Shown: positions 27,140 through 47,513, counted from the stretch's first letter. The stretch: DNA of 64,000 nucleotides from a virus (IMGVR_UViG_3300031873_000001:1-64000), one strand, 5' to 3'. Notes: a model not told the origin generated them from the letters alone. A program made the numbers and translations.

Positions 27140-30100
27140 ATGGCTGATCCACGAGACATTCGCGGAGAACGGAAGAGCCCGGATGGCATATCGAAATCTC
27201 TTCCGTCTTCCGTATTTAGCTGGCACCTGAATAACGAGATCTACGGGCGGGGACTTCCGGAGCCTGTCGGAGCGTCCGGTTATTCCGGGGACGAAAAGCA
27301 GATCAGCCGGAGGGACCACGTCCACGAGGGGGTCCACTCGATCGGGATCGTCTCTCCCATTGCGCCTCCTCCCGCAACCGGGAATGTTCTCTTTCAGGGG
27401 TATAGCGGTGTCGACGTTACCCAGGACGGCCAGACGATCACCTTCAGTGGGGCGGGAGGGACCGGAGCGTCCGGTTATTCCGGCCTTTCTGGTTACAGCG
27501 GAGAATCGGGAGGGTCGGGGCCCAGTGGAGCGTCGGGTTACTCGGGATTCTCGGGGTTCAGTGGGGAGGCTACGGGGGTATCGGGGGCCAGCGGTTACAG
27601 CGGGTTCTCAGGATTCTCGGGGGAGTCCGGGGCCTCCGGCCTGTCGGGCGCCTCAGGGGCCTCAGGTGCGTCCGGGACGTCAGGGGAGTCCGGTTACTCG
27701 GGAGCCAGCGGGTTCTCAGGCCAGAGTGGCCTTTCTGGGGCTTCTGGGGGGTCAGGAACGTCAGGCGCGAGTGGGCAGAGCGGGTATTCCGGCTTTTCCG
27801 GCTTTACTGGGGCTTCCGGCCTATCCGGAGCATCGGGTGCCAGTGGAGCCTCCGGCCAGTCGGGATACTCGGGGTTCTCGGGGTTCACGGGGGAGTCCGG
27901 GGCGTCTGGTGCCTCCGGGACCAGCGGAGCCTCGGGACAATCGGGTTACAGCGGGTTTTCCGGGTTCACAGGAGCATCAGGGCAGAGTGGAGCGAGTGGT
28001 GCATCAGGCCAATCAGGACAGTCGGGGTATTCCGGATTCAGCGGGTTCAGCGGAGAATCCGGGGCGTCAGGTGCAAGTGGAACTTCGGGTGCATCGGGAC
28101 AATCAGGCTACAGCGGTCTCTCAGGTCTCAGTGGACTATCTGGGACTTCAGGAGCATCTGGTGCATCTGGGGCCAGCGGTCAGTCTGGGTATTCTGGGTT
28201 CTCTGGATTCACCGGGCTCTCGGGTGCTAGCGGAGCTTCAGGAGCCTCAGGAGCATCTGGAACTTCAGGTGCTTCTGGTTACTCTGGTTTCTCCGGATTC
28301 AGCGGACAATCCGGAGCAGAAGGGGCATCCGGAGCTAGTGGTCTTTCGGGTGCTTCTGGCCAGTCGGGCTACTCGGGACTTTCTGGACTTTCTGGCGCGT
28401 CAGGTGCGTCGGGAACATCGGGAGCATCCGGCTACAGCGGTTTCTCAGGTTTCACGGGAGCCTCCGGCGCCGGAGGAGCTTCCGGAGCAAGCGGGGCAAG
28501 CGGTCAATCAGGATATTCAGGGTTCAGCGGATTCTCCGGGCTGAGTGGAGCCTCGGGAGCGTCCGGCGCCTCGGGAACTTCGGGAGCTAGCGGTCAATCC
28601 GGTTATAGCGGATTTTCCGGATTCACAGGTGCCAGTGGATCTTCAGGAGCCAGCGGGGCTTCCGGTGCATCCGGCCAGTCTGGTTACTCAGGTCTTAGCG
28701 GGTTTTCCGGAGAGTCCTTCGTAGGATCATCCGGTCAGTCCGGTTATTCTGGTTTCAGTGGGTTCACGGGACAATCCGGGGCTTCGGGAGCCTCGGGTCT
28801 TTCGGGGGCCAGTGGAGCTTCGGGTGCCAGCGGTCAGTCGGGTTATTCGGGCTTCTCAGGATTTTCCGGCCTATCCGGAGCGTCAGGCGCGAGCGGTGCG
28901 TCTGGTGCTTCAGGGCAGTCCGGATATTCTGGTTTTTCAGGCTTCACGGGTTTGTCCGGAGCCAGCGGACTAAGCGGTGCGTCTGGTCTATCGGGAGCGA
29001 GCGGGGCGTCCGGACAGTCCGGTTATTCCGGGTTCTCGGGCTTTACAGGTCTTTCTGGCGCTTCGGGTGCTTCAGGCGCGTCTGGGGCATCTGGACAAAG
29101 TGGCTACAGCGGGTTTTCTGGTTTCACTGGTGCTTCAGGCGCCTCAGGGGCCTCCGGCGCATCCGGAGCATCGGGCCTATCGGGTTACTCCGGCTTCTCG
29201 GGATTCACCGGAGCATCGGGACTCAGCGGAACATCAGGAGCATCGGGGGCCTCGGGAGAGAGTGGACAAAGTGGATATTCAGGACTATCCGGTCTCAGTG
29301 GTCTTTCTGGAGCGGTGGGACTTTCGGGCGCGTCTGGTTATTCAGGATTTAGTGGGTTCAGCGGTACGTCAGGGGAATCAGGTCTTTCTGGTGCGAGTGG
29401 AGCATCTGGGGCCAGCGGCCTCTCGGGTTATTCGGGATTCAGTGGCTTCACAGGGGCATCCGGAACTTCAGGAGCCTCGGGTGCGAGTGGAGCTTCGGGC
29501 GCTTCCGGACAGTCCGGCTACAGCGGATTTAGCGGATTCACAGGAGCGGTTGGAGCGTCTGGCGCCTCCGGTGCTTCAGGAGCGTCCGGTCTCAGTGGAT
29601 ACTCAGGCTTTTCGGGATTCACTGGGGCTTCAGGGCTCTCCGGACTCTCAGGTGCGTCCGGAGCGAGTGGCGCGTCCGGGGCTGTTGGGCAGTCAGGATA
29701 TAGCGGACTCTCTGGCTTCTCTGGACTCTCTGGAGCCGAAGGGGCCTCCGGAGCATCGGGACTCTCGGGAGCCAGCGGACTAAGCGGGTACTCCGGGTTT
29801 AGTGGTTTTACCGGCGCCTCTGGTCTCAGTGGAGCCTCGGGAGCGAGTGGGGCCAGCGGTCAATCCGGATATTCTGGCTTCTCTGGTTTCACTGGGGCTT
29901 CCGGACTCATCGGGGCTTCAGGAGCGAGCGGACAGAGTGGCTACTCTGGATTCAGTGGATTTACGGGAGTCAGCGGGCTTTCTGGGGCAAGCGGAGCTAG
30001 TGGGCAATCCGGATATAGTGGCTTCTCGGGGTTCACTGGTCTCTCGGGTGCGTCCGGACTTTCGGGCGCGTCCGGCGCTAGTGGTGCCAGCGGAGCTTCG

Positions 30101-32725
30101 GGTCTTTCGGGCTATTCGGGGTTCTCAGGGTTCACTGGGCTGTCCGGGGCCTCGGGCCTCAGTGGTGCTTCAGGTGCTTCAGGCCAGAGTGGGTACAGCG
30201 GCTTCTCAGGATTTACTGGTCTCTCTGGGGCATCGGGTTTGTCCGGAGCATCTGGGGCCAGCGGGGCTTCTGGTTATTCTGGTCTCAGTGGACTCTCTGG
30301 TGCGGTCGGTGAGTCTGGGGCATCAGGGGCAAGTGGGGCGTCCGGGCAAAGCGGTTATTCCGGCTTCAGTGGGTTCACAGGGGCCTCTGGACTCAGTGGA
30401 GCCTCGGGGGCTAGCGGAGCTTCCGGCCTCAGCGGGTATTCCGGTTTCAGTGGATTTACTGGTCTGTCCGGTCTTTCTGGGGCCAGTGGGGCTTCAGGTG
30501 CGAGCGGAGCAAGTGGTGCGTCGGGCCAAAGCGGGTACTCAGGATTCTCGGGATTCACCGGCCTGTCCGGAGCATCTGGATTAAGCGGAGCCTCAGGTGC
30601 GTCTGGGCTGTCCGGTTATTCTGGTTTCAGTGGGTTCACGGGAGCGTCCGGTCTATCCGGAGCGAGCGGTGCCAGCGGGGCTTCTGGGCTCTCTGGTTAC
30701 AGTGGGTTTAGTGGATTCACCGGGTTGTCCGGAGCATCCGGGCTTTCAGGGGCATCTGGTGCGATCGGGCAATCGGGTTACAGCGGGCTGTCTGGATTAT
30801 CCGGCCTATCCGGAGCTAGCGGAGCCTCAGGTGCTTCAGGGTTGTCCGGGGCCAGCGGAGCTAGCGGACAATCAGGCTACAGCGGCTTTTCAGGATTCAC
30901 TGGGGCATCGGGACTCAGTGGGGCCAGCGGAGCTAGCGGTCTATCGGGCTACTCAGGCTTCAGCGGGTTCACAGGTTTGTCAGGTGCGAGCGGGGCTAGT
31001 GGAGCATCCGGTGCGTCGGGTCTTTCGGGCTATTCGGGGTTCTCAGGGTTCACCGGAGCCAGTGGTCTGTCCGGAGCTTCAGGGGCCTCGGGACTTTCAG
31101 GTGCCAGCGGGGCATCTGGTCAAAGCGGCTACTCGGGTTTCAGTGGATTTACGGGACTTAGCGGGGCTTCCGGAGCGAGCGGTGCGTCCGGGGCTTCAGG
31201 TCTCAGCGGATATTCTGGGTTCTCGGGATTTACAGGGCTTTCGGGGGCCAGCGGTGCCAGCGGGGCGAGCGGAGCCTCCGGTCTTTCCGGTTATTCCGGC
31301 TTCTCTGGATTTACCGGAGCTGTTGGCGCCTCCGGAGCTTCGGGAGCAAGTGGTGCTTCCGGACTCTCCGGGTATTCGGGTTTCTCTGGGTTTACCGGCG
31401 CCTCGGGTCTTTCAGGAGCTAGTGGAGCCTCTGGGGCCAGCGGGCAGTCCGGTTACTCAGGATACAGCGGACGATCCGGCTTCAGCGGGCTGTCCGGAGC
31501 AGGAGGAGCTTCAGGCGCCAGCGGAGCGAGCGGCGCCTCGGGACTTTCAGGCTACTCCGGGTTCTCGGGGTTTACCGGAGCCAGTGGGGCTAGCGGAGCT
31601 TCAGGTGCCAGTGGGGCCTCGGGGTATAGTGGCTATCTCTCGCCTGCTCTGTTTAGAAATTATACCAACGCAGAATACCTGGCCAGTGATACATCTGGAT
31701 GGTACGCTCCTGTAGCAAGAACTGGAAACGAAAGAATTTATCTCTGCCAGACTCCACAGACCCAGAATAATGTTGGGTTCCGTATCCGAGCGGCGTTCAA
31801 GCCTAATTCCTCAGCCGACACCTATGGAATATGTTTTGGTTGGAATGGATTAAATCCAGCTACCGCAAGTGGTCTTGTCTTTTACTATACCGGCTCTGGA
31901 ACTACGTTGAATATGTCTGTTGATACTGCTGGAAGCTGGTCCAGCGTGTCTGGTGGTGCTTTCACAGTTACATTGGCTACGGGACAATGGCATAATATAG
32001 AAATCTATGTATACGGCGATTATGGAAGTGGGGTCAATGTTTGCGATTGTTATTGTGATGGTATATTTTACTATCGGATGACGACTACTGATTTTTCTGC
32101 ATTCGATGCTTATACTGGTTATTATGGAGTTTGGTTGGATGCTACGGCAGTCAGGGTTCACCCCGACTTTATTGCCGATGAACTCGGGTCGGTCATGGCT
32201 CCGAAGGTCAGTTATGAGGGTTATCCGGGTTTCTACGACCACTTCGACGGGACCTCTCTTGATACGAACCTTTGGACTAAAGTTGGAGCGTCTGCTACCT
32301 ATTCAGTAGATAAAAGTATTATAGCTATCCTGAATGCCGGGGGGACTTATGGTGAAATGTATACGAAGAAGACGTGGTTGTATGGTAGACTTGCCATGAG
32401 AGTGAAGGATGATTACGACAGGTCTGGTGTATTTAGGAATGCTGTTGGTTTCTGGGATTCTGGTGGAACTTACTATGTTCGTTTTAACGATGGAAACTTT
32501 GAAACCTACGATGGGACTGTAACGCAGACTGTGGTTGCGGTTCCGGCTAAGGCATGGCATCTTATAGAAATTACATGGGACCCGAACAAGTGCAGAATGT
32601 ATTTGAACGGTCAGTTGGTTGCCGAGCATACGACACATATTCCAACCAATGTTTGGTTGCCTATTCACATTTTTTCCGGTGATACTTCTGTTGGTATTAG
32701 TTTCGATTGGATTGGTGCTACATGA
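27140..32725 (+). CDS. Giant collagen-like Gly-X-Ser tail fibre with lectin-like C-terminal domains (1861 aa)
   Basis: Residues ~1-100 are a globular tail-attachment part (LNNEIYGRGLPEPVGASGY, RRDHVHEGVHSIGIVSP). Residues ~105-1498 are an almost unbroken Gly-X-Y repeat in which Y is nearly always Ser or Thr and X is mostly Ala, Leu, Tyr, Phe or Gln; longer units such as GYSGFSGFTGASG recur every ~30-45 residues. Proline is nearly absent, unlike animal collagen. Residues ~1500-1690 and ~1690-1861 are two concanavalin-like jelly rolls (IRAAFKPNSSADTYGICFGW; YDHFDGTSLDTNLWTKVG, WHLIEITWDPNKCRMYLNG). Predicted long trimeric fibre with a carbohydrate-binding tip; dense Ser/Thr suggests O-glycosylation (inference). 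The tip DNA is more AT-rich than the stalk. Confidence 0.85.
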   Translation: MADPRDIRGERKSPDGISKSLPSSVFSWHLNNEIYGRGLPEPVGASGYSGDEKQISRRDHVHEGVHSIGIVSPIAPPPATGNVLFQGYSGVDVTQDGQTITFSGAGGTGASGYSGLSGYSGESGGSGPSGASGYSGFSGFSGEATGVSGASGYSGFSGFSGESGASGLSGASGASGASGTSGESGYSGASGFSGQSGLSGASGGSGTSGASGQSGYSGFSGFTGASGLSGASGASGASGQSGYSGFSGFTGESGASGASGTSGASGQSGYSGFSGFTGASGQSGASGASGQSGQSGYSGFSGFSGESGASGASGTSGASGQSGYSGLSGLSGLSGTSGASGASGASGQSGYSGFSGFTGLSGASGASGASGASGTSGASGYSGFSGFSGQSGAEGASGASGLSGASGQSGYSGLSGLSGASGASGTSGASGYSGFSGFTGASGAGGASGASGASGQSGYSGFSGFSGLSGASGASGASGTSGASGQSGYSGFSGFTGASGSSGASGASGASGQSGYSGLSGFSGESFVGSSGQSGYSGFSGFTGQSGASGASGLSGASGASGASGQSGYSGFSGFSGLSGASGASGASGASGQSGYSGFSGFTGLSGASGLSGASGLSGASGASGQSGYSGFSGFTGLSGASGASGASGASGQSGYSGFSGFTGASGASGASGASGASGLSGYSGFSGFTGASGLSGTSGASGASGESGQSGYSGLSGLSGLSGAVGLSGASGYSGFSGFSGTSGESGLSGASGASGASGLSGYSGFSGFTGASGTSGASGASGASGASGQSGYSGFSGFTGAVGASGASGASGASGLSGYSGFSGFTGASGLSGLSGASGASGASGAVGQSGYSGLSGFSGLSGAEGASGASGLSGASGLSGYSGFSGFTGASGLSGASGASGASGQSGYSGFSGFTGASGLIGASGASGQSGYSGFSGFTGVSGLSGASGASGQSGYSGFSGFTGLSGASGLSGASGASGASGASGLSGYSGFSGFTGLSGASGLSGASGASGQSGYSGFSGFTGLSGASGLSGASGASGASGYSGLSGLSGAVGESGASGASGASGQSGYSGFSGFTGASGLSGASGASGASGLSGYSGFSGFTGLSGLSGASGASGASGASGASGQSGYSGFSGFTGLSGASGLSGASGASGLSGYSGFSGFTGASGLSGASGASGASGLSGYSGFSGFTGLSGASGLSGASGAIGQSGYSGLSGLSGLSGASGASGASGLSGASGASGQSGYSGFSGFTGASGLSGASGASGLSGYSGFSGFTGLSGASGASGASGASGLSGYSGFSGFTGASGLSGASGASGLSGASGASGQSGYSGFSGFTGLSGASGASGASGASGLSGYSGFSGFTGLSGASGASGASGASGLSGYSGFSGFTGAVGASGASGASGASGLSGYSGFSGFTGASGLSGASGASGASGQSGYSGYSGRSGFSGLSGAGGASGASGASGASGLSGYSGFSGFTGASGASGASGASGASGYSGYLSPALFRNYTNAEYLASDTSGWYAPVARTGNERIYLCQTPQTQNNVGFRIRAAFKPNSSADTYGICFGWNGLNPATASGLVFYYTGSGTTLNMSVDTAGSWSSVSGGAFTVTLATGQWHNIEIYVYGDYGSGVNVCDCYCDGIFYYRMTTTDFSAFDAYTGYYGVWLDATAVRVHPDFIADELGSVMAPKVSYEGYPGFYDHFDGTSLDTNLWTKVGASATYSVDKSIIAILNAGGTYGEMYTKKTWLYGRLAMRVKDDYDRSGVFRNAVGFWDSGGTYYVRFNDGNFETYDGTVTQTVVAVPAKAWHLIEITWDPNKCRMYLNGQLVAEHTTHIPTNVWLPIHIFSGDTSVGISFDWIGAT
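27455..31640 (+). repeat. Coding triplet-repeat region (Gly-X-Ser/Thr stalk)
   Basis: About 4.2 kb encoding ~464 Gly-X-Ser/Thr triplets. All six serine codons and all four glycine codons are mixed, so the peptide repeats while the DNA rarely repeats exactly over long distances. Confidence 0.9.
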
Positions 32726-33084
32726 GGAATAGAGAGCACCTTTATTTTGATACTCCAGCCTCTGCCGGAGACAGGTATTTTGGAATTGGGGTCGTCGCCT
32801 CTCAATATGCGGTTCAGATGATGGCTCCTGGAAGGATAATAGGCTTTAAGGCTTATGGTTCTTCAAGTGGTGAGCAGGCTATCATCCAAGATGTCGCTCC
32901 GGCCCCCTTTGTAAGTGGAGATAGAATCTCCGTATATATCTCCTACGATGCTATGTTTGAGATGGGTTTTCTTCTGATTCATTTGAATGGTGCATACGCC
33001 GACGCCGGACAATTCCAGTATAGTTGGTTTGCTGATGTCCGGAATGAGAACTGGAACGCTACGATTCTGGTGGAGTATTTTTGA
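32722..33084 (+). CDS. Tandem small tail-tip protein, copy 1 (120 aa)
   Basis: ATG 32722 overlaps the fibre stop by four bases. First of three tandem paralogues sharing ASAGDRYFGI-like, ASQYAVQMM, PGRIIGFKAYG, GEQAI..VAP, SGDRISVYI and the end NWNATILVEY. All-beta, probably a jelly roll. Location after the giant fibre suggests a tip, chaperone or capping protein. AT-rich compared with the baseplate genes. Confidence 0.65.
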   Translation: MRNREHLYFDTPASAGDRYFGIGVVASQYAVQMMAPGRIIGFKAYGSSSGEQAIIQDVAPAPFVSGDRISVYISYDAMFEMGFLLIHLNGAYADAGQFQYSWFADVRNENWNATILVEYF

Positions 33085-33449
33085 TGAGGACTTATAACCA
33101 TCTAAGCTTTGCTGACACGGCATCTGCCGGGGATAGATATTTGCGTGGTGGTTCGGTAGCCTCTCAGTATGCTGTTCAGATGATGACTCCGGGTAGGATA
33201 ATTGGGTTCCGGTGCTATTCTGATAGTGGGAGTATAGTGGAACAGGCCATTGTTAGGAATGTCGCTCCAGTTTACTTTGCGTCGGGAGATAGAATTGCAG
33301 TATACATTCGTTATGATTTGATGTTTGGCGACACCTATGTAGAGACCAGAAAAAATGGTGCAGTAGCAGGTTCGTTTTACACGAAGTTCACTTTTTCGGA
33401 CTATCGTGCTAACAACTGGGCGGCGACTGTTCTTGTGGAGTATACATGA
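33084..33449 (+). CDS. Tandem small tail-tip protein, copy 2 (121 aa)
   Basis: ATG 33084 overlaps the upstream stop (TGATG). Paralogue of its neighbours: TASAGDRYLRGGSVASQYA, MMTPGRIIGFRCYS, FASGDRIAVYIRY and NNWAATVLVEYT. Divergence concentrates in the middle (residues ~70-105), as expected for a binding surface. Overlaps the next copy by four bases. Confidence 0.65.
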   Translation: MRTYNHLSFADTASAGDRYLRGGSVASQYAVQMMTPGRIIGFRCYSDSGSIVEQAIVRNVAPVYFASGDRIAVYIRYDLMFGDTYVETRKNGAVAGSFYTKFTFSDYRANNWAATVLVEYT

Positions 33450-33805
33450 AGGCTCTTAGCCATCTGAGTTTTGACACGGCGGCGAGTGCGAGCGATAGAT
33501 ATTTTGGGTCTGCTTATTTTGCTACTCAATACGCCGTTCAGATGATGCAACCCGGAAGGATTATTGGTTTCCGGTGTTATGGTGCTACGCTTGGGGAACG
33601 GGCTATAGTCCAAAATGTAACTCCCATTTACTTTGCGAGTGGAGATAGAATTTCTGTTTATATTAGGTGTATCGGAGGCGAACAAACGAATGTGGAAATA
33701 AGAAAGAATGGAGCCTTAGCAACTGGATGGGAGGACATTGTAGACCCTGCCGGTGATTCTCGTAATCAGGCTTGGAACGCAACGATTCTAGTGGAGTATC
33801 TCTAA
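33446..33805 (+). CDS. Tandem small tail-tip protein, copy 3 (119 aa)
   Basis: Third paralogue: AASASDRYFGSAYFATQYA, MMQPGRIIGFRCYG, GERAIVQNVTPIYFASGDR, ISVYIRC and the end AWNATILVEYL. ATGA overlap with copy 2. The three copies imply local duplication followed by divergence; function otherwise unknown. Confidence 0.65.
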   Translation: MKALSHLSFDTAASASDRYFGSAYFATQYAVQMMQPGRIIGFRCYGATLGERAIVQNVTPIYFASGDRISVYIRCIGGEQTNVEIRKNGALATGWEDIVDPAGDSRNQAWNATILVEYL

Positions 33806-33817: not shown

Positions 33818-34051
33818 ATGAAGTATTTTAGACTAGGGGTGATGAACGACGAGACGTTCCGGAAGTTTACAAAGAAGCCGATCCCCATCAGTGCGGCTCA
33901 GATCAACGAGCCCTTTGAGGTTCAGACCATCGAGGGAACGATGCAGGGAGCGGCTGGGGACTATCTGCTGATCGGAGTTCGGGGCGAGATGTACCCGGTC
34001 AAGAAGGAGATCTTCGAAGAGACCTATCAACCCGTGGAGGATGCGAGATGA
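33818..34051 (+). CDS. PGDYG-like small protein (77 aa)
   Basis: C-half GTMQGAAGDYLLIGVRGEMYP followed by KKEIFEETYQPVED matches the small 'PGDYG' phage/bacterial family (G..GDY...G..GE.YP...F..TY). The function of that family is not established. Strong SD AAAAAGGAGG precedes the start. It overlaps the radical-SAM gene by four bases, so the two are co-expressed. Confidence 0.65.
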   Translation: MKYFRLGVMNDETFRKFTKKPIPISAAQINEPFEVQTIEGTMQGAAGDYLLIGVRGEMYPVKKEIFEETYQPVEDAR

Positions 34052-34800
34052 ATACCCTTGAAATAACCACCGTGATCGGCTGTGTCAACCGGTGCAAATA
34101 CTGCCCGCAGAAGAAGCTGGTCTACAATTACCACCTGCAGGCGAAGCAACCGAGGGAGATGACCTTCTCCGACTTTGAGACGATCATCTCAACGGTTCCC
34201 AAGACCGTCCGGATCGACTTCTCCGGCTTCTCGGAGCCCTTCCTGAATCCGGAGGCCGCACGGATGATGAGAGCCGCAGGACTGTCCGGGCATCCCGTAG
34301 CCCTCTACACAACGATGGTCGGCATGACCGAGAAGGACGTGGCCATCATCCAGGGAATGATGTTTGACATCATAGTCGTCCACCGGACGGCTTCCCCGGA
34401 GCTTACGGATGAATGGTTCAGGAAGAAGCGGGACATTCTAATGGAAGCCGTGGACGCCAAGATCAAGAACCTCGAGGATCGGGTTCATTCCCCCGTTTCC
34501 CGGGCCGGAAACCTGTTCCCTTCCGTCCCGACGATAAGGGGGCCCCTTCACTGCGGGGTCTGCGGGGACCAGTTCGATCACAACGAAGTCCTGCCGAACG
34601 GGAACGTCTACCTGTGTTGCATGGACTACGGCCTGAAGCACAAGATCGGGAATCTCCTGAATCAGTCGTGGGAGTCCCTGGACCGGGCGGCCATCCGGAA
34701 ACTATCCGGAGCCATGAGCTCGGATTTACTGTGTCGTTCATGTGAGAATGCGAGGAGGATCAATGTCACTGATCAAAACAGACCGCTCCCAAAGGCGTGA
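34048..34800 (+). CDS. Radical SAM enzyme with SPASM-like C-terminus (250 aa)
   Basis: The N-terminal CVNRCKYC (CxxxCxxC) binds the 4Fe-4S cluster used for SAM cleavage; ITTVIGC precedes it and RIDFSGFSEPFLNPEA is the usual barrel strand. The C-terminal cysteines (CGVCGDQFDH, NGNVYLCCMDY, DLLCRSCENARR) form a SPASM/twitch-like auxiliary cluster region, with LKHKIGNLLNQSWESL typical. Such enzymes modify peptides or sugars. The phage context is late/fibre genes on the left and a sugar cluster on the right. Substrate unknown. The end overlaps the next gene. Confidence 0.85.
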   Translation: MNTLEITTVIGCVNRCKYCPQKKLVYNYHLQAKQPREMTFSDFETIISTVPKTVRIDFSGFSEPFLNPEAARMMRAAGLSGHPVALYTTMVGMTEKDVAIIQGMMFDIIVVHRTASPELTDEWFRKKRDILMEAVDAKIKNLEDRVHSPVSRAGNLFPSVPTIRGPLHCGVCGDQFDHNEVLPNGNVYLCCMDYGLKHKIGNLLNQSWESLDRAAIRKLSGAMSSDLLCRSCENARRINVTDQNRPLPKA

Positions 34801-38763: not shown

Positions 38764-38834
38764 CGATGGATAGTCGGGAGTAAGTGTGGCCCTACTCCTG
38801 CCTCGCCAGCCCGAATTAAGGGAGGTGAAGCCAA

Positions 38835-39146
38835 GTGAAGAAGATAGCCTTTGACCTAGACGGAACGCTCGCAAAGGTGAACCCTGACAAAGAGGGGGGA
38901 GAGATCGGAGAGGTCATTCACCCAAACATAGATTTAGCAATCCGATGGATGCAGGAAGGTAACCTAGTCTTTATTTTCACGGCCCGGGGTTGGTGGGAGT
39001 ATGTGGATATCCGTGCGTGGATGGAGAAGAACGGCCTGAAGGATGCCATCCTTGTCTGCGGGAAGCTCCACGCCGATATCTACTTCGATGATCGTGGGCG
39101 ACAGCTCGATGAGAATACATTGAAAGGGACGGAGGTTCCGAAGTGA
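38835..39146 (+). CDS. HAD-superfamily phosphatase (103 aa)
   Basis: GTG start with SD GGGAGGTGA. HAD motifs: FDLDGTLAK (nucleophile DxD), VFIFTARG (motif II Thr), then the KLHADIYFDDRG end (motif IV). Compact, without a cap domain. HAD enzymes of this size in polysaccharide clusters dephosphorylate sugar phosphates. Four-base overlap with the GT2 gene. Confidence 0.8.
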   Translation: MKKIAFDLDGTLAKVNPDKEGGEIGEVIHPNIDLAIRWMQEGNLVFIFTARGWWEYVDIRAWMEKNGLKDAILVCGKLHADIYFDDRGRQLDENTLKGTEVPK

Positions 39147-40924
39147 TCTCGATCGTGATTCCGATTCTCAACCGTTTGGATCTCCTCAGGCGGGCGTTCC
39201 CCTCGATCTACACACAGGACTACCCCCGAGAGAATTACGAGGTCATCTTTGTGGACTACGGGTCCACGGACGGCCTCAAGGAATACCTGCAGTCTCTCTC
39301 CGGCGTTCTTAACCTCACCTACCTTCGGATCGATGACTCGAAGGCCAAGATCCCCGTCTACCACGGTCCCACTGGGACGTGCAATCCTGCACTAGCCTGG
39401 AATGTCGGGATCCGCAGGGCCCGGGGCGACCTTCTCATGCTGACAAGCCCGGAAGTCATTCACGTTACCGAGACTTTAAAGCAGGCCGTGGAGTTCGGCA
39501 GGGAGGGCCGGGTCGTGCGGGCTCGGGTCGTGGATGTCCCTCCCTGGACCCAGCTTCTGATGGATGAGCTCCACACCTTCAGCTCGTCGGGGCTGATCAA
39601 CCTCACCTGCTCCACCGAGCGCCCGGATATGGCCGGACTCTACTTCATCGGGGTCATCCCGAAATCCCTCATGGAGAAGATCGGAGGGATTGACGAGGAC
39701 TACATGCAGGGTCTGGCCTGGGAGGACACCGAATGTGGTCGTCGGATGATGGCTTCCGGGGTAGAGCTCTTCCACGCCGACGACATGATAGGACTTCACC
39801 AGTATCATCCCCGGGTCGATCTTGGATCAGACTTCTACTGCCTCAAGAACCAGACCCGCTTCCTAAGCGAGTTCAAGACCGTTGCCAACGTCGGTCGGGT
39901 CTGGGGAGATCCCGACGTGATCGTGGACGAGTGGTCTTGCGTTCCCAGTGTTCCTGCCGATCCGCAACGCCAGCACTTTGAGGATCGCCGCTACCGCCTT
40001 AATATCTTGAAAACCCCAAAACGCCTCGTGGGATTCGTTCGGACGTATAACGAGGTCGGGCGGGACTACTTCGACAAGTTCTTCGATCAGGCCAAGACCT
40101 GGGGCCTCGACGCCCTCTTCGTTCTCGATGACTGCTCCACGGACGGGACGGTAGCGGCCGTCCGGAAGCATACTCCGTATGTCTGGGTGAGGGATCGGAA
40201 CCGGGGGAAGCACTACGAGATAGAAAATATGATGTTCCTGGTTGACCGGTGCAAAGAGGTCGGAGCCCAGTGGATGCTTTGGATGGACATCGACGAGGTT
40301 TTAACTCGGAATGCCGGGGAGATCATGAAGCGGCTAATGGAGGAGGGCGACAAGCAGGGATGGTCGTCGGTTTACTTTCCCGAATACAACCTTTGGAAGA
40401 CCCCCCGCTGGCGTCGACGGGACATGGGTTGGTCGTGTAGCACGGGCTGGGCGAGGCTATGGAAAAACGATGGCATCATGTTTTTCGAACAGGGGAACGC
40501 CGTTGGAGCCCATCTTCAGCTGTGGCCTCGGTGCCTTGACCGGAATTCCTTCCGGACGGAGGAGGTTGCTGTCCTTCACTACGGCTACGCATCGAAGGAG
40601 AACCTTGATACCAAGTGGGAGGAGTATACCCGACTCGATTCCCGGCGCCTCTTTCTCTACACGAGGATGCTGGATGAGACGAACTTGCTTTTGCAGAGGT
40701 TGCCGGACGAGATTTTTCCCGAGGCCCTAATCCCGAAGCCGGAGGATGAAGAGTATCCCCGGTGGATGGAGAATGACCTTCATCGGATCGCCGAAGTTAT
40801 GGGGAGGTGTGCGTGGACAATGAGGCCGTTGGTGGAAGCCGATTTTCTGCAGAACGTATATCAGGAAACCCAGCAGATAAAATTGGCAGGCTTGCCCGAT
40901 ATTACTTCTGTGGGTACGCCCTAA
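39143..40924 (+). CDS. Double-domain GT2 glycosyltransferase (593 aa)
   Basis: GTG start overlapping the HAD stop. Residues ~1-260 are one GT-A/GT2 domain (SIVIPILNRLDLLRRAFPSI, EVIFVDYGSTDG, LAWEDTECGRRMM). Residues ~290-560 are a second GT2-like domain (LVGFVRTYNEVGRDYF, ALFVLDDCSTDGT, WMLWMDIDEVLTR), closely related to the whole protein at 42140 (YNLWKTPRWRR versus YNLWRKPRWRR). Both have the DxD-type metal site. Probably adds two sugars in turn. The end overlaps the next gene by ~110 bases. Confidence 0.85.
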   Translation: MISIVIPILNRLDLLRRAFPSIYTQDYPRENYEVIFVDYGSTDGLKEYLQSLSGVLNLTYLRIDDSKAKIPVYHGPTGTCNPALAWNVGIRRARGDLLMLTSPEVIHVTETLKQAVEFGREGRVVRARVVDVPPWTQLLMDELHTFSSSGLINLTCSTERPDMAGLYFIGVIPKSLMEKIGGIDEDYMQGLAWEDTECGRRMMASGVELFHADDMIGLHQYHPRVDLGSDFYCLKNQTRFLSEFKTVANVGRVWGDPDVIVDEWSCVPSVPADPQRQHFEDRRYRLNILKTPKRLVGFVRTYNEVGRDYFDKFFDQAKTWGLDALFVLDDCSTDGTVAAVRKHTPYVWVRDRNRGKHYEIENMMFLVDRCKEVGAQWMLWMDIDEVLTRNAGEIMKRLMEEGDKQGWSSVYFPEYNLWKTPRWRRRDMGWSCSTGWARLWKNDGIMFFEQGNAVGAHLQLWPRCLDRNSFRTEEVAVLHYGYASKENLDTKWEEYTRLDSRRLFLYTRMLDETNLLLQRLPDEIFPEALIPKPEDEEYPRWMENDLHRIAEVMGRCAWTMRPLVEADFLQNVYQETQQIKLAGLPDITSVGTP

Positions 40925-41898
40925 GAGATTACAGCATCCTGACCGTCTTTGTCTCCGGCGCCGGGCCGGACGTCATAGAGGGGATGAAAGTGTTCTCGGA
41001 CATGGGGTTTGAGGTTTCGCCTATCCTGAACCCCCCGGCTCTAGGGTTTCCGGACGCCATCGTCTGTCTTGATACCTTCAAGAGAACGCACGACTGGGGT
41101 GAGTATGCGAAGAATTTAGTCGAGAGTGCCGCTAAAGTATTTATGTTCTCTATTGAAATCGGGGAGGAGTTTGACCGGAGCGTCTTGCCCCCGAATACGA
41201 CCTTTTTCAACCAGACATCCGAGGGCTTTATCTATGATCGTGATACGCACTTCCTTCCGGCTACCCATCTTATCGGGCTCGTGGTGAAGGAACAGAAGGA
41301 GGGGCCCCTCCGTGTCATCCTTGGCGGTCACTGGGCCCAGGCTATAGGATGGACGATACTGACGCATGCTCAACAGGACATTACGCATCCATTGCAGTTT
41401 CTGGCTGGGAGCGTGGAGTGCCTGTTTATGGAGCATGCCCTCGAGCACATAGGCTTCGGAGATGCTCTCAAGTTCTTCAATGAGGCTTACCGGGTCTTGA
41501 AGCCGGGAGGCGTTCTCCGGATCGTATCTCCGGATCTCGATAAGCTGTTCAATTTCATGGCCACCGATGAGGATGGCGAGTGTATTGACGATCGGGATGA
41601 GGAATATGTAAAGACGTTGATCGACAAGTATGCCATTCCTGAAGAGCTCCAATCCCGCTATACGTTTCCCGTTTTTCTGGTGAACGATATTGTTCGGGAG
41701 CATGGCCATAAGTTCGTCTGGAACGTTCCTCTTGTCTTCCATGCCCTCCGGAGGTGCGGATTTGAGGTTAAGGTGTTCGGGATAGGTGAGGGGACGAATC
41801 CGGACTTCTGCCTCGAGCGGAAACGTCGGGGTCTAAAGGATGAGATCGGACCGCCCTATGATTGCGAGAGTTTTCATGTGGAGGGGGTTAAGCTATGA
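40813..41898 (+). CDS. SAM-dependent methyltransferase-like protein (361 aa)
   Basis: GTG 40813 chosen with GGGGAGG just upstream; the long overlap with the preceding gene is supported because ARYYFCGYALRDY (~residue 28) matches RYYFAAEILSDY in the protein at 43044. The C-terminal half has a methyltransferase core (VECLFMEHALEHIGFGDALKF, RVLKPGGVLRIVSPDLDKL). The N-terminal ~160 residues resemble a second, degenerate Rossmann domain. Probably methylates a sugar or links to glycan assembly. Confidence 0.7.
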   Translation: MDNEAVGGSRFSAERISGNPADKIGRLARYYFCGYALRDYSILTVFVSGAGPDVIEGMKVFSDMGFEVSPILNPPALGFPDAIVCLDTFKRTHDWGEYAKNLVESAAKVFMFSIEIGEEFDRSVLPPNTTFFNQTSEGFIYDRDTHFLPATHLIGLVVKEQKEGPLRVILGGHWAQAIGWTILTHAQQDITHPLQFLAGSVECLFMEHALEHIGFGDALKFFNEAYRVLKPGGVLRIVSPDLDKLFNFMATDEDGECIDDRDEEYVKTLIDKYAIPEELQSRYTFPVFLVNDIVREHGHKFVWNVPLVFHALRRCGFEVKVFGIGEGTNPDFCLERKRRGLKDEIGPPYDCESFHVEGVKL

Positions 41899-42143
41899 GG
41901 CATTTTAAGGATACGATTTGTCCTCGATGTGGCGTGGCGGGGAAAGTTAGACGGTTTCCGAGTCCTCGTGAAATGAAGCGTAGGGTTGAGGAGTGTGGAA
42001 AGAAGAAGGATGTAGTTGCTCTTTTGGCTTACGGAGCAAGCATCCCTTCGGTTCATGGATTTAAATGCGACGGCTGTGGCGCTACCGGGACAGGTTGGGA
42101 AGTGATTGCCAAGAACCTTGTTATCGTGGAGCCTATTAAATGA
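41895..42143 (+). CDS. Zinc-ribbon protein (82 aa)
   Basis: Two CxxC knuckles: CPRCGVAG near the start and CDGCGATGTGW in the second half, separated by a helical basic stretch. Four-base overlaps with both neighbours. Small phage zinc ribbons of this type have no established function; the position inside the sugar cluster may be incidental. Confidence 0.65.
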   Translation: MRHFKDTICPRCGVAGKVRRFPSPREMKRRVEECGKKKDVVALLAYGASIPSVHGFKCDGCGATGTGWEVIAKNLVIVEPIK

Positions 42144-43051
42144 AGCTAGCCTGCATCGTTCGTGTTTACAACGAGATGATCACGGGGCATGCTCAACGGT
42201 TCTTTGCCCACTGGAAAGAGTGGGGAGCGGACGAGCTCTTTGTCCTCGACGACCACTCCGACGACGGGACAGCGGAGTATGCCCGGAAGTTCACGCCCCA
42301 CGTCTGGGTGCGGGAGCAGAGGTACGGCAGGAACAGGGAGAAGGAGAACACGGTATTCCTTCTGGACCGGGTGAACGAGGTTGGCGCCGAGTATATCCTT
42401 TTCATGGACTGCGACGACATCCTTAGCCGGGGGGCCGGACAACGTCTGCGGGATTACTGGCTTCCCACGATGGACAAGCAGAACTTCAGCTCCCTGGTCT
42501 TTACGTCTTATAATCTCTGGCGGAAGCCCCGCTGGCGTCGGGTCGATTCCATGTGGGCCTGCGAGGATCAGTTCTATCGGTTGTGGAAGAACGAGGGCCT
42601 GAAGTTTGACGTGATCGAGGATAAGCAGATGCATGCCCCGCCCGCTCCTCCGCAGGTTTTCCGGTACTGGACGATCGTGCCCCATGACGACATCACGTTT
42701 CTGCACTACGCCTATGCCGACCTTTACAGATTGAGGGAACGCTTCCTGCATTACGCCCATCTCGACGGGAAGCGGATCGGCATGTATGCCCGGATCATCG
42801 ACGAGTCCAGCCTGATGTTGGAGCGGGTCCCGGATGAGCGGTTTCCGGAGGATCTCGTGCCCGGCCCGGACCAGGAGGAGTATCTCCGGACTCCGATGGA
42901 CGACCTGCACTATCTCAGTTTGTCTGTGGGCCGGGCCTGCTGGAAGGACAAGCCCATAGAGGAACGAACGGAGTGGTGGGAATGCGCCGAGAGAAATAAG
43001 CGTATTCTGGAATCTAACCGCCCGGGGATGAGGATGCTTGGTGATGAATAA
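42140..43051 (+). CDS. GT2 glycosyltransferase (303 aa)
   Basis: One GT-A domain: CIVRVYNEMITGHAQRFF, LFVLDDHSDDGT, YILFMDCDDILSRG and YNLWRKPRWRRVDSMW. It is a paralogue of the C-terminal domain of the protein at 39143. The C-terminal ~80 residues are helical (FLHYAHLDGKRIGMYARIID). No membrane segment, so it acts in the cytoplasm on a nucleotide-sugar donor. Confidence 0.85.
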   Translation: MKLACIVRVYNEMITGHAQRFFAHWKEWGADELFVLDDHSDDGTAEYARKFTPHVWVREQRYGRNREKENTVFLLDRVNEVGAEYILFMDCDDILSRGAGQRLRDYWLPTMDKQNFSSLVFTSYNLWRKPRWRRVDSMWACEDQFYRLWKNEGLKFDVIEDKQMHAPPAPPQVFRYWTIVPHDDITFLHYAYADLYRLRERFLHYAHLDGKRIGMYARIIDESSLMLERVPDERFPEDLVPGPDQEEYLRTPMDDLHYLSLSVGRACWKDKPIEERTEWWECAERNKRILESNRPGMRMLGDE

Positions 43052-43541
43052 CATTCACCTGTCCGCGATTTACCTGAAGCTGGTCCGGTACTACTTCGCC
43101 GCCGAGATTCTGTCCGACTACGAGGTCACGGGATTCGTCTTGGACTCGGAATGCGGGGACGGTTTAGGGACGGACGTCTTGGCTAAGGCGGGCCTCCACA
43201 CTCTTGGGGTCGACGAGAACCCCCATGTCGTTAACTATGCCAACGAGCACTTTACGGAGTCGAGCCGGGCCATCTTTTTATGGAAACCCGCTTTAAGCAA
43301 AGAGCTCAAGGTCGATGCGGTGGTTTCTTTTGAAGCCTTCAAGGACGAGAAGTTCAATCTCCCCGTTCTGGTGGAGATGGCGAGGAGGATATTTATCTTC
43401 TCGGCAAACTATATCCCGGAGGGGGCGCTGATTCCGGAGGGGACGCAGTTCTTCTACCAGACTGAGGATGGGCTGATCTACGACCGGATGCCGACCAAGC
43501 ATCCTCCGATCCACCTTATTGGAGTGGTTATAAAGCGATGA
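43044..43541 (+). CDS. Methyltransferase-like Rossmann protein (165 aa)
   Basis: ATG 43044 chosen. It opens with a helix similar to the protein at 40813 (LVRYYFAAEILSDY) and a SAM-binding-like strand-loop (FVLDSECGDGLGTDVLAKAG, LGVDENPHVVNYANEHF). It then follows the path of the N-domain of 40813 (RIFIFSANYIPEG and PEGTQFFYQTEDGLIYDR resemble KVFMFSIEIGEE and PNTTFFNQTSEGFIYDR). It thus looks like a shortened paralogue lacking the second half. Confidence 0.65.
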   Translation: MNNIHLSAIYLKLVRYYFAAEILSDYEVTGFVLDSECGDGLGTDVLAKAGLHTLGVDENPHVVNYANEHFTESSRAIFLWKPALSKELKVDAVVSFEAFKDEKFNLPVLVEMARRIFIFSANYIPEGALIPEGTQFFYQTEDGLIYDRMPTKHPPIHLIGVVIKR

Positions 43542-44620
43542 TGCGAGCGAAACCGTTGGAAGGCGCCCGGGTCCTGGTGACCGGAGGGACCGGCTCTTTG
43601 GGTAAGGTGCTGGTCCGGAGGATTTTCGCCGGGGAGATGGGTATTCCCAATGAGGTAGTCGTGTTCTCTCGGGATGAGGCCAAGCAACACTTCATGAGAA
43701 TGGAGTGGCAACGATCGACCGTTGCGGTGACCGACGAGAGGATTTACGATGACTTCCAGAACAAGCTGAAGTTCGTGATCGGGGACGTGCGGGACTACGA
43801 TAGCGTCTTTCGGGTGTTGGAGGACGTGGATGTGGTGTTCAATGCCGCCGCCCTGAAGCAAGTCCCGACCTGCGAGTACTTTCCCCTCGAGGCCGTGAAG
43901 ACTAACATTCTCGGGGTGGCAAATATCGTTCGTGCGGTCGAGGCGCATCCCCGGGTGCAGACGGTCGTGGGGATATCTACCGACAAGGCCGTGAAGCCTG
44001 TGAACGTCATGGGGATGACCAAAGCCATCCAGGAGCGTATCTTTATCGAAGCGAACATCCACTGCCCGACCCGGTTCGTCGTCGTCCGTTACGGGAACGT
44101 GCTGGCTTCCCGGGGATCTGTGATACCTCTTTTCTATGATCAAATCCAGCGAGGCGGTCCCGTCACGGTTACCACGAAGGATATGACGAGGTTCCTGCTC
44201 TCCCTCGATGAGGCCGTGGACGCCATTTTTGCCGCTCTCAAGGAGGGTGATGCGGGGGAAACCTACGTGCCGGTCGTTCCCTCGGCAAAGGTTGTCGATA
44301 TCGCCTGTGCTTTGAGGGGTAAGAGACCCATCGAACTTCTGTTTACGGGAATCAGGCCGGGGGAGAAGACCCACGAAATTCTGATCAGCGAAGAGGAGGA
44401 TTACCGGACCTATCAGAAGGGGAATTATTATGTCATCCTTCCGATCCTTTCGGAGATTCGATCTGGACTTCCTGGGGACGTGAAACCTGCTCGTGGCGTT
44501 AGGGGGGAATATAGTTCCGAGCATGGATGCTTAAAATTCTCGGAGGTCGAAGAGTTCCTGCAGGCGAAGGGATTGATGGTCGATGACTACAAGCCGGATT
44601 CGATGGACGCTATGCGATGA
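43538..44620 (+). CDS. UDP-GlcNAc 4,6-dehydratase-like enzyme, CapE/WbjB family (360 aa)
   Basis: Extended short-chain dehydrogenase. NAD motif VLVTGGTGSLGKVLVRR; FSRDEAKQHFMRMEW; GDVRDYDSVFRVLEDVDVVF; NAAALKQVPTCEYFPLEAV (catalytic AAALKQVP region); STDKAVKPVNVMGMTKA; RYGNVLASRGSVIPLF; GIRPGEKTHEIL. These are typical of the polysaccharide-biosynthesis 4,6-dehydratases acting on UDP-GlcNAc (CapE/WbjB/FlaA1-type). With the 2-epimerase next door, two of the three enzymes of the UDP-L-FucNAc route would be present; no CapF/WbjC reductase is visible. Product is inferred. Confidence 0.85.
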   Translation: MMRAKPLEGARVLVTGGTGSLGKVLVRRIFAGEMGIPNEVVVFSRDEAKQHFMRMEWQRSTVAVTDERIYDDFQNKLKFVIGDVRDYDSVFRVLEDVDVVFNAAALKQVPTCEYFPLEAVKTNILGVANIVRAVEAHPRVQTVVGISTDKAVKPVNVMGMTKAIQERIFIEANIHCPTRFVVVRYGNVLASRGSVIPLFYDQIQRGGPVTVTTKDMTRFLLSLDEAVDAIFAALKEGDAGETYVPVVPSAKVVDIACALRGKRPIELLFTGIRPGEKTHEILISEEEDYRTYQKGNYYVILPILSEIRSGLPGDVKPARGVRGEYSSEHGCLKFSEVEEFLQAKGLMVDDYKPDSMDAMR

Positions 44621-45729
44621 AGATCGCAACCCTGTTCGGGACCCGCCCGGAAATTATCAGGCTTTCCAACGTAATCCGGGGGCTCGATTCCCTATGTGAT
44701 CAGATCGTCGTCCACACCGGGCAGAACAGCGATCCCTGCCTCTCCGAGGTGTTCTTTGAGGAGCTCGAAATCAAGAACATTCTCCGGCGCCTCATGATCA
44801 CAGGGGAGAACTTCGAAAATCGGGTTGCCGACATTTTTGTGAAGGTGGGAGATCTCTTTCGGAAGGAGAGGCCGGACCGGGTTCTTATTCTGGGGGATAC
44901 CGACAGCGGGCTGGCGGCGATCGTGGCCAAGAGAATGGGGATCCCGGTCTACCACATGGAAGCGGGGAATAGGTGTTACGATGATCGGGTGCCGGAGGAG
45001 GTTAACCGGAAGGTGATCGACCACGCCAGCGACATCTTGATGCCCTACACCCAGCGGAGCAAGGAGAACCTCTTGCGGGAGGGGATCCCGCCCAACCGTA
45101 TTTACGTCACGGGGAATCCGATCTACGAGGTCATCTGCCGCTGGGGAGAACAGATAAGGCAATCTGATGTTTTATTTTCTGTCGGGCCGCCTCCCCTGCA
45201 GTCCGGGCAGTATTTTCTGGCAACCTTCCATCGGCAGGAGAACGTAGACGTCCCGGACCGTCTGAAGAACATCATCCAGGGTCTGTCCCTCGTGGGGGAT
45301 CATTATTCGATGCCTGTTGTTGTTAGCCTGCATCCCCGGACGAAGGAGAAGCTGAATCAGGCCGACGAGCTGGATATCAGTAAGTGGGTTGCCTTCCGTG
45401 AGCCCTTTGGCTTCTTCGACTTCGTGAGGCTCGAGCAGAACGCCTGCTGTATCTTGACCGACAGCGGGACGGTCCAGGAGGAGGCAACCATTTTCAAGGT
45501 TCCCGCCGTCACGGTCCGGGATACGACAGAACGCCCGGAGACCCTCGAGTGCGGGAGCAACATTCTATCGAAGGACGATCCGGAAGCTATTCTGGAAGCC
45601 GTGGAGACCGTCTTTTCTGGAACGACGGGAGAACGGGAGGACTGGTGGAGAGTTCCACCGGAATACGAGAACGGGTCTGTTTCAAGGATCGTAGCCAAGA
45701 TCATTTTAGGGCATCACTATGCTACCTGA
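44617..45729 (+). CDS. UDP-GlcNAc 2-epimerase family enzyme (370 aa)
   Basis: Classic family features: KIATLFGTRPEIIRLSNVIR, VVHTGQNSDPCLSEVFF, VLILGDTDSGLAAIVAKRMG, YHMEAGNRCYDDRVPEEVNRK (split only by description), YVTGNPIYEVI, LATFHRQENVD, LTDSGTVQEEA and TERPETLECGSNIL. Inverts C2 of a UDP-HexNAc (WecB/CapG-like). It follows the 4,6-dehydratase with a four-base overlap, so the pair supplies an activated sugar for the glycosyltransferases around it. Start overlap ATGA. Confidence 0.92.
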   Translation: MKIATLFGTRPEIIRLSNVIRGLDSLCDQIVVHTGQNSDPCLSEVFFEELEIKNILRRLMITGENFENRVADIFVKVGDLFRKERPDRVLILGDTDSGLAAIVAKRMGIPVYHMEAGNRCYDDRVPEEVNRKVIDHASDILMPYTQRSKENLLREGIPPNRIYVTGNPIYEVICRWGEQIRQSDVLFSVGPPPLQSGQYFLATFHRQENVDVPDRLKNIIQGLSLVGDHYSMPVVVSLHPRTKEKLNQADELDISKWVAFREPFGFFDFVRLEQNACCILTDSGTVQEEATIFKVPAVTVRDTTERPETLECGSNILSKDDPEAILEAVETVFSGTTGEREDWWRVPPEYENGSVSRIVAKIILGHHYAT

Positions 45730-46612
45730 TTATCTGATAACCGAGTTCAACCCGCTGTTCGACACCCACGAAGCCCGCTACCGGATCGAAGTCGTGGTCA
45801 CCACGAAGGAGCGGTACACCAACCTGTGCATGCTTTTGTCCTCCCTGCTCGCTCAGAACTACGGGAACTGGGATTTGACCGTCGTGGACGACACCGAAGG
45901 GGCAAGGCCGATCAGCGAGGCCTTCCCGACATGCAATATTCTCGATCAGCTCAACCACCAGGGGCATAACTGGCGGGTGATCTGGGGGCCGAAGAGGGGG
46001 CCCCATGCCGCCTTCTATGCGGGGTTCGTTAACCGACGCCATGAGCTCGTGGCCAACATCGACGACGACTTCGTGCTCTTTCCGAATTACCTTCAGTGGA
46101 TGGTCGTTCCCTTTGTGCAGTGCGAGCAAATCCTGGGCGTGGGGAAGATGCTGGGGGGCGTGGGAGGGGTCTATCTCTTACCCCGGATGACCCTCGAGAG
46201 CCAGACTGCCCCGAATAACTGGGCGTCCGTGAACCTCTATCAGGGGAAGATAAGGCCCTTAACCCCTCTTCTCCACCAGACCCTCTCTCCGGACGTCAAT
46301 CTCAAGGAGGCCGAGCACATTAACTCCTGCTTCCTCGTCTCGGGATCCGCCGTGGATGCCTCCGGAGGGATATGCCTCGATTATTCCCCCGCAGGCCACC
46401 GCTGGGAGACCGATCTCACCTACCACATGTTCAAGAAGGGCTATACCCTCCTGGTCCAGCCCCGAGCGATCGCATGGCATTATGCCTCCCTCGAGGGCGG
46501 TATCCGGGTGACCAAAGGCATCCCTAACCCCGAGAAGTTTTGGATCGACGACCAGAACCTTTACGATCGGAGGATGGCAGAGCTCGATGGAACAAACCCC
46601 CCGGCCATCTAA
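45719..46612 (+). CDS. GT2 glycosyltransferase (297 aa)
   Basis: GT-A fold: RIEVVVTTKERYTNLCMLLSS, WDLTVVDDTEGARP, HAAFYAGFVNRRHELVANI with DDDF (metal site), then INSCFLVSGSAVDASGG and HRWETDLTYHMFKKG, the usual acceptor loop with catalytic acidic residues. Overlaps the previous gene by 11 bases and the next by 26. Soluble. Donor and acceptor unknown. Confidence 0.85.
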   Translation: MLPDYLITEFNPLFDTHEARYRIEVVVTTKERYTNLCMLLSSLLAQNYGNWDLTVVDDTEGARPISEAFPTCNILDQLNHQGHNWRVIWGPKRGPHAAFYAGFVNRRHELVANIDDDFVLFPNYLQWMVVPFVQCEQILGVGKMLGGVGGVYLLPRMTLESQTAPNNWASVNLYQGKIRPLTPLLHQTLSPDVNLKEAEHINSCFLVSGSAVDASGGICLDYSPAGHRWETDLTYHMFKKGYTLLVQPRAIAWHYASLEGGIRVTKGIPNPEKFWIDDQNLYDRRMAELDGTNPPAI

Positions 46613-47513
46613 CTGGTTCACCCTCGTAATCGACGGGGGCATCGGGGATCACATCTGCGTCACCCCGATGCTCCGGGCGACCAAGAAGGCCTACCCGGAT
46701 CACCACATCATCGTCTCGGCATGCTACTGGGAAGCCCTTCAGGGCAATCCGAACATCGACAAGCTCTTTCACATCTCTGCGGAGGATGCTCGGGAGTTCT
46801 ATGAGGACTGGGTAATCCCACAGAAAGATTCCCGAAAAACCATCCGGGCCGACCTCTACACCCGGCGCTGGAATCATGTCTACGACGGGCTCCAATCTAA
46901 GGCTTGGTCGGAGATCTGCGGGCTTCCCTGGGACAATGACGAACTTGAGGTTTTCCTCCGCCCGTCCGAGCTCACTTGGGGCATGAATTTTATGAAGGGT
47001 TTTGGCGAGAAGGTCGTCCTGATCAACAGTGCGGCCGCTAACATTCCTCTCACCGGGAAGAAGGGGACGCCCAACAAGGACTGGTTCCACGATCGCTGGG
47101 TAGCCCTCACAAAACGGCTCCGGGAGGCCGGGGTCGCCGTCCTCCAAATCGGGGGCAACGGGGAGACCTGTGTGCCCGGGGTAACCGCCAACCTTTGCGG
47201 GGGCCTCTCGATCCGGCAGACCCTTTCGATCCTGCGGTTCTGCTCGTCCTACGTCACGGTCGAATCCTTCATCGGGCACGGAGGGCCCGCCGTCGGGAAA
47301 CCGGGGGTCGTTCTCTTCGGAAGAAGCAACCCCCACATCTCCGGCCACGCCATGAATACCAACCTGTGGATCCCGGGCTCCTGCGATAACTTATTCTGCT
47401 GTCGGCCCGAGGGATATTACCTGGACGGGTTTAATTGCCCCTCGAGGCCCTGCATGTCCTCAATTACCGTGGACGCCGTTTTCGACGCTTTAGTCCCTCT
47501 CATTCCCCTGTAG
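46587..47513 (+). CDS. GT9 heptosyltransferase-like glycosyltransferase (308 aa)
   Basis: WFTLVIDGGIGDHICVTPML at the start (the G.GD...T.P motif of GT9), then HIIVSACYWEALQGNPNIDK, VLINSAAANIPLTGKKG, VAVLQIGGNGETCVPG and the C-terminal SSYVTVESFIGHGGPAVGKP and VVLFGRSNPH. The second GT9 in the cluster, related to the C-terminal domain of the protein at 37288. It ends the cluster; no clear T-run terminator follows. Confidence 0.85.
   Translation: MEQTPRPSNWFTLVIDGGIGDHICVTPMLRATKKAYPDHHIIVSACYWEALQGNPNIDKLFHISAEDAREFYEDWVIPQKDSRKTIRADLYTRRWNHVYDGLQSKAWSEICGLPWDNDELEVFLRPSELTWGMNFMKGFGEKVVLINSAAANIPLTGKKGTPNKDWFHDRWVALTKRLREAGVAVLQIGGNGETCVPGVTANLCGGLSIRQTLSILRFCSSYVTVESFIGHGGPAVGKPGVVLFGRSNPHISGHAMNTNLWIPGSCDNLFCCRPEGYYLDGFNCPSRPCMSSITVDAVFDALVPLIPL

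Follow-up and report, generated by a model that had tools for sequence, protein, structure and literature searches.

How would a long collagen-like stalk that almost lacks proline stay folded, and could the sugar genes encoded behind it have a part in this? This question is raised by positions 27140-47513 of IMGVR_UViG_3300031873_000001:1-64000, a stretch (hereafter the window) comprising bases 1-64000 of a 159,536-base IMG/VR virus record. An open reading frame (ORF) on the plus strand (27140-32725, 1861 amino acids (aa)) encodes the fibre protein of the window and is followed, on the same strand, by ~ 13 kb of glycosyltransferase (GT), methyltransferase and nucleotide-sugar genes (34048-47513). 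According to the reading that we favour, and to which we give a probability of roughly 0.7, the phage would O-glycosylate Ser/Thr residues of its Pro-free collagen-like stalk in the host cytoplasm by means of the co-encoded enzymes, so that the fibre would be stabilised or shielded by its glycans.

The collagen-like stalk

The stalk covers residues 106-1500 of the fibre (27455-31639, plus strand) and consists of 464 Gly-X-Y triplets arranged in runs at aa 106-144, 146-526 and 529-1500. Position Y is occupied by Ser in 417 triplets and by Thr in 34 (97% Ser/Thr), while the most frequent residues at X are Ala (188), Phe (84), Leu (75), Tyr (54) and Gln (33). Pro occurs once, and Lys is found at neither X nor Y in the 464 triplets of the window. 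The preliminary description of this DNA had counted about 460 triplets with Ser or Thr in third position and almost no Pro, which these figures bear out. The fibre matches the Pfam Collagen family PF01391 with E=2e-192 and 624 bits (cut-off 27.2), and thus shows the long uninterrupted Gly-X-Y repeats, above the Pfam cut-off, by which the family is recognised.

A super-repeat of ~ 27 aa (GYSGFSGFTG...) recurs along the stalk. Across 40 of its units the mean identity is 84% at the amino acid level and 60% at the nucleotide level, and the Ser codons at Y are drawn from both boxes (TCN 291, AGY 126). Given these differences, the repeat pattern is kept by selection on the protein, and the Gly-X-Ser pattern can be put down neither to chance nor to recent repetition of the DNA. 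The product would be a long fibre of the phage tail or for host recognition, and is probably a trimer.

Glycosyltransferases beside aromatic Gly-X-Ser fibres

Gly-X-Ser fibres were collected from two IMG/VR pattern scans and Pro-type collagens, used as controls, from one, the fibre records being those among the matches listed and hence not a random sample. The records were sorted by fibre composition and whole records were then searched for GT2. Among the matches listed, 38 of the 65 Gly-X-Ser records with aromatic X have a GT2 no more than 8 kb from the fibre, compared to 3/50 for the Pro-type, 2/24 for the non-aromatic Gly-[Ser/Thr]-Ser and 0/6 for the Gly-X-Thr class (Fisher p 1e-9 against the Pro-type and 2e-5 against Gly-[Ser/Thr]-Ser). 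The first scan alone, in which X was free, gives 9/15 for aromatic versus 2/24 for Gly-[Ser/Thr]-Ser fibres (p 9e-4). Furthermore, the GT2 density in the aromatic class is 9.5 per 100 kb near the fibre and 1.4 over the rest of those records.

Neighbourhoods of up to 20 kb were then taken around fibres of three kinds (58 aromatic, 20 non-aromatic Ser, 34 Pro-type), and all their ORFs were clustered without bias as to family; three control regions had no called fibre, so that 19 and 32 controls were counted. Two families are the commonest across the 58 aromatic neighbourhoods, one of GT2 type (34/58) and the other, hereafter GT9C, a GT9-like family of 150 aa (31/58); both are absent from the 19 Gly-[Ser/Thr]-Ser and the 32 Pro-type control regions, while every other family reaches at most 15/58. 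These families lie mostly 3' of the fibre and on the same strand, at a median distance of 209 bp. A GT cassette is thus a specific neighbour of fibres of the aromatic Gly-X-Ser type.

The sugar genes could instead alter a surface polysaccharide of the host (O-antigen or capsule) and so block superinfection, in which case their proximity to the fibre would reflect the gathering of host-interaction genes in tail-fibre regions. This is how phage GT clusters in fibre regions are usually read, as in pelagimyophages (PMC7029224) and Nanopelagicales phages (PMC10202952), the GTs of such genomes being assigned in these papers to host-surface or DNA modification. Moreover, lipopolysaccharide pathways typically include GT9 and WecB-like enzymes. 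However, a role at the host surface predicts equal linkage to other fibres, and Pro-type and Gly-[Ser/Thr]-Ser fibres stand without the cassette; we hold such a role to be improbable, a view to which the distribution and the enzyme content described below also contribute.

A cassette with an apparently divided GT9

The usual gene order is fibre, a GT2-methyltransferase (~ 430 aa), a GT2 with an extra C-terminal domain (~ 325 aa, hereafter GT2-GT9N) and GT9C. The extra domain contains GLGDHIVFSHVLP, a motif of the N-terminal half of GT9, and resembles the N-terminus of the full-length GT9 found in the window at 46587-47513 (hhalign E 6e-5), while GT9C aligns with the C-terminal half of WaaC structures (E 6e-5). 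On these grounds, one GT9 seems to be divided between two cassette proteins, its N-half being fused to a GT2. Motifs of catalytic type, DxD (WRxDDD) and GxGDH, are kept in the cassette. In the predicted structure of GT2-GT9N (predicted local distance difference test (pLDDT) 92), residues 1-245 align to GT-A folds and the modelled remainder, strand-helix-strand, fits half a Rossmann domain. In structural comparisons with this model (Foldseek, VIA-align), polypeptide GalNAc-transferases come out on top (Z 18.4) but many other GT-A enzymes follow within 1 Z, and because of this tie no acceptor is claimed from it.

The window itself encodes unsplit homologues of the cassette pair, a GT2 at 45719-46612 (plus strand), homologous to the GT-A domain of GT2-GT9N (cassette hidden Markov model (HMM) E 1e-25; hhalign E 1e-19; PF00535), and the full-length GT9 at 46587-47513 (plus strand; GT9C HMM E 9e-17; PF01075 36.4 bits, cut-off 22). 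Both cassette HMMs were built without window sequences. An hhalign comparison of A2 with the window GT9 was set aside as circular, since A2 contains that segment, and the GT9C HMM serves as the independent test. The homologous pair thus belongs to the gene cluster of the fibre, in unsplit form and not next to the fibre but 13 kb downstream of it.

A cultured example is the Methylophilaceae phage P19250A (KX815270). Its GYSG fibre P19250A_0023 (KX815270.1 21390-24995; 7750-11355 in L628), of 1202 aa and 281 triplets, is annotated as a tail length tape-measure protein but is actually a Gly-X-Ser collagen-like fibre. It is followed by a methyltransferase (0024), GT2-GT9N (0025) and GT9C (0026), all annotated as hypothetical; P19250A_0024 matches only the methyltransferase half of the 430-aa GT2-methyltransferase.

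Distribution and apparent mobility of the cassette

Starting from the cassette rather than from the fibre, an aromatic Gly-X-Ser fibre is found within 8 kb in 61 of 80 viral GT2-GT9N loci, and in 44 of the 49 loci with at least 3 kb upstream. The 325-aa family occurs in 2 of 84,980 prokaryote genomes against at least 597 viral stretches, and it is absent from the 50 Pro-type, 24 Gly-[Ser/Thr]-Ser, 6 Gly-X-Thr and 11 GYTG records. The last of these records represent a parallel class of viral fibres, aromatic Gly-X-Thr, seen in L268, L271, L311, L316, L323, L324, L330, L334 and L350 among others (cassette 0/11).

The association was also followed within one lineage, defined by 34 records that share a capsid-like protein and scored as fibre-positive where a collagen-type protein exceeds the Pfam cut-off. 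The cassette is present in 4 of 6 fibre-positive and in 0 of 28 fibre-negative records (p 3e-4); one of the two fibre-positive exceptions is a contig ending 345 bp past the fibre, while the other, L572, is real. It might be argued that the stalk is an unglycosylated rod, polyglycine-II-like or collagen-like, whose link to GTs stems from shared habitat or hitchhiking. Many aromatic Gly-X-Ser fibres do lack the cassette and, as is generally known, Gly at each third position is compatible with polyglycine-II packing as well. However, the co-occurrence within a lineage and the density contrast within records control in part for habitat and lineage, and we regard an unmodified rod as very improbable.

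When the regions were grouped by their other shared genes, 18 lineages were obtained, of which 11 contain the GT2 family and 9 the 150-aa family. The cassette is carried by at least three structurally unrelated phage groups, and three recurrent structural backgrounds, named podo-, myo- and sipho-like from gene content only, were compared. Median cassette identity is 65-69% between these groups and 66-75% within them. Since the values between groups approach those within, the cassette seems to pass from phage to phage and yet to stay with the aromatic Gly-X-Ser fibre. Its position directly 3' of one stalk type in unrelated phages is a further point against a role at the host surface.

The same distribution bears on whether the cassette glycosylates some other virion protein, such as the capsid, the tail tube or the fibre tip, and not the stalk. 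Glycosylation of the major capsid protein by phage enzymes is indeed on record for mycobacteriophage Che8 and relatives, as cited in PMC11256854. Against this, the cassette is linked specifically with aromatic Gly-X-Ser stalks in phages whose capsids and tails are unrelated, and these stalks present up to hundreds of Ser acceptors, so that another virion target is, in our judgement, quite improbable.

Glycosylation of the stalk would proceed as follows. Soluble GTs and methyltransferases would attach short, partly O-methylated glycans to Ser, and some Thr, at position Y, the transfer probably taking place in the host cytoplasm, either ahead of fibre assembly or in the course of it, and the stalk glycans may then stabilise or shield the fibre. 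Ser/Thr is a more plausible acceptor than Tyr because Tyr, Phe and Trp interchange at X. We see an even chance that this amounts to a dedicated, horizontally mobile phage system which O-glycosylates and methylates Ser of Pro-free aromatic Gly-X-Ser stalks, in which the split GT9 and the GT2 fused to its N-half act on the same substrate and the glycans take the role of the Pro/hydroxyproline of animal collagen.

Observations that weigh against stalk glycosylation

Several observations count against this reading. Of the 42 aromatic Gly-X-Ser regions whose downstream sequence extends for 4 kb or more, 15 lack the cassette, L572 has a fibre and no cassette within the very capsid lineage tested, and in the short contigs L488, L490 and L494 the cassette stands beside another Gly-rich protein without a Gly-X-Ser fibre. 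In L011 (4670-6384), a GT9 and a methyltransferase-like gene adjoin tail genes, the tail protein having the N-terminal motif of the fibre and no collagen repeat. In the window, the homologous GT pair is 13 kb away from the fibre, among other genes. Finally, the fibre records are the first among the matches listed, and structural genes are common to 31 of the 58 regions.

The preliminary description had linked the sugar genes to the fibre and had named the same fibre without sugar genes in related phages as evidence to the contrary. The link gains from the specific cassette next to aromatic Gly-X-Ser fibres and loses from the 15 regions without it; some of the latter have other GTs or a sulfotransferase nearby. 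Likewise, the idea that related phages keep or lose fibre and cluster together agrees with the close relative described below and with a capsid lineage in which the cassette occurs only with a fibre, but not with L572. The neighbours of the cassette-less fibres (15 regions, within L353-L409) include GT2, GT17, a sulfotransferase, 2-oxoglutarate-Fe(II) oxygenases and radical-SAM proteins, which are perhaps alternative fibre-modifying enzymes.

Other parts of the fibre and genes of the window

All features of the fibre and the sugar cluster below (27140-47513) are on the plus strand. The N-terminal domain of the fibre (aa 1-105, 27140-27454), with a DHVHEGVHS-type motif, is by homology the probable virion-attachment end; it is 79% identical to that of the relative L010 and 33% identical to a tail protein in phage contig L011. 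The genes 5' of the fibre include tail genes, one of which is a homologue of a baseplate wedge protein. The C-terminal tip region (31640-32722) shows 90% identity in the relative L009, and its last part resembles PF06439, a ConA-like fold family (E 4.6e-8); its AlphaFold model (pLDDT 38) is unusable and no phage match to it was found in INPHARED. Three small tip-like paralogues follow at 32722-33084, 33084-33449 and 33446-33805, the ATG of the first overlapping the fibre stop (ATGA), and the junctions between the fibre and these ORFs consist of overlapping starts and stops, ATGA-type or one-base. In L009 (5123-11461), the fibre carries a homologous domain fused at its C-terminus, and the tandem copies (window 32722-33805) are possible exchangeable receptor-binding tips.

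The cluster opens with a radical-SAM/SPASM protein (34048-34800; PF04055 and PF13186 above cut-off) and an Eco57I/TaqI_C-type DNA adenine methylase (34742-37006; PF07669 E 9e-34, PF12950) that probably has nothing to do with the fibre; a restriction partner of this methylase was not noticed nearby. The next genes encode a methyltransferase fused to a full, heptosyltransferase-like GT9 (37288-38763; PF08241, PF01075 64.6 bits against 22), conserved in L009, a small HAD-like hydrolase (38835-39146; weak Pfam matches, below cut-off), a double GT2 protein (39143-40924; PF00535 E 1.7e-23, PF13704), a methyltransferase (40807-41898; PF08241 above cut-off), a GT2 protein (42140-43051; PF13704 and PF00535 above cut-off) and a methyltransferase-like protein (43038-43541; PF08241 22.2 bits, cut-off 21.2). 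Nucleotide-sugar enzymes precede the homologous GT pair, namely a UDP-GlcNAc 4,6-dehydratase-like enzyme of the PseB/FnlA family (43538-44620; PF02719 E 1.5e-89; TIGR03589 292 bits, below its equivalog cut-off) and a WecB-type UDP-GlcNAc 2-epimerase (44617-45729; PF02350 E 4e-88; TIGR00236 272 bits, cut-off 210). By the PF01075 cut-off, the proteins at 37288-38763 and 46587-47513 both belong to GT9. In INPHARED, the double GT2 has no relatives and the methyltransferase-GT9 has only partial ones of low identity. The radical-SAM gene and sugar cluster announced by the preliminary description are therefore present, over ~ 13 kb rather than ~ 10 kb, and the Eco57I-type methylase and the three tip-like ORFs between fibre and cluster come in addition. 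Some genes neighbouring the fibre may serve other purposes.

All enzymes of the cluster are predicted to be soluble, and a search of the 159-kb record for two families returned neither the initiating transferase PF02397 nor the flippase PF01943. Both features speak against modification of the host surface and fit direct cytoplasmic glycosylation better than a lipid-linked polysaccharide, other lipid-linked routes lying outside the two families searched. The close relative IMGVR_UViG_3300035660_000001 (160 kb) has both fibre (2112 aa, C-terminus 90% identical) and cluster in the same gene order, which is little independent evidence because ancestry is shared. Elsewhere in the window, the thymidylate synthase PHROG match of a 786-aa protein (1829-4189) is limited to ~ 100 residues, possibly an intein or another shared insert.

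Comparison with known systems and significance

BclA of the Bacillus exosporium has a collagen-like stalk with O-glycans, methylated sugars included; a paper on its oligosaccharide is among those cited by PMC9614988. The preliminary description drew this analogy, which holds in outline for the collagen-like stalk but not in detail: BclA has GPT triplets with Thr as acceptor, whereas the stalk of the window is dominated by Ser (417 of 464, with 34 Thr and 1 Pro), often has an aromatic residue at X, and belongs to a viral system with different enzymes and its own GT cassette. TibC and Aah are GT9-related Ser heptosyltransferases that modify a repetitive adhesin; the split GT9C profile matches TibC in PDB weakly (E 0.36), and the window protein at 37288-38763 scores 25 bits against the TIGR04414 cut-off of 200. 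Compared to WaaC-type GT9, whose C-half GT9C matches, the cassette has its GT9 halves on separate proteins, the N-half being fused to a GT2.

Among viruses, mimivirus encodes both collagen-like proteins and a collagen-glycosylating enzyme, the hydroxylase/glucosyltransferase L230, which contains a lysyl hydroxylase domain and takes hydroxylysine as its substrate (PMC9614988), whereas the window enzymes are GT2/GT9 and its triplets contain no Lys. In Che8-type mycobacteriophages, phage GTs are thought to glycosylate virion proteins, the acceptors reported being major capsid proteins, with no mention of a collagen-like stalk (PMC11256854). The EPclA-D proteins of E. coli O157:H7 prophages are likewise collagen-like phage tail proteins, trimeric and located in the side tail, but their stalks are Pro-rich and the protein made recombinantly showed no glycosylation of Thr (PMC3368898). 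No report linking GTs to Gly-X-Ser fibres was found in the literature searched, which is weak evidence of novelty.

Pro-free collagen-like fibres are common in environmental phages, as seen in the IMG/VR pattern scans, and a specific mobile GT cassette offers a direct hypothesis for how such stalks stay folded, namely that Ser glycans stabilise or shield them. The existence of a cultured phage with fibre and cassette, P19250A, makes this idea testable at the bench. If true, it would give a function to phage GT genes that are now read as superinfection or DNA-modification genes. Altogether, the recurrence of this linkage across many unrelated viruses suggests that they coat collagen-like fibres of their own with sugars.
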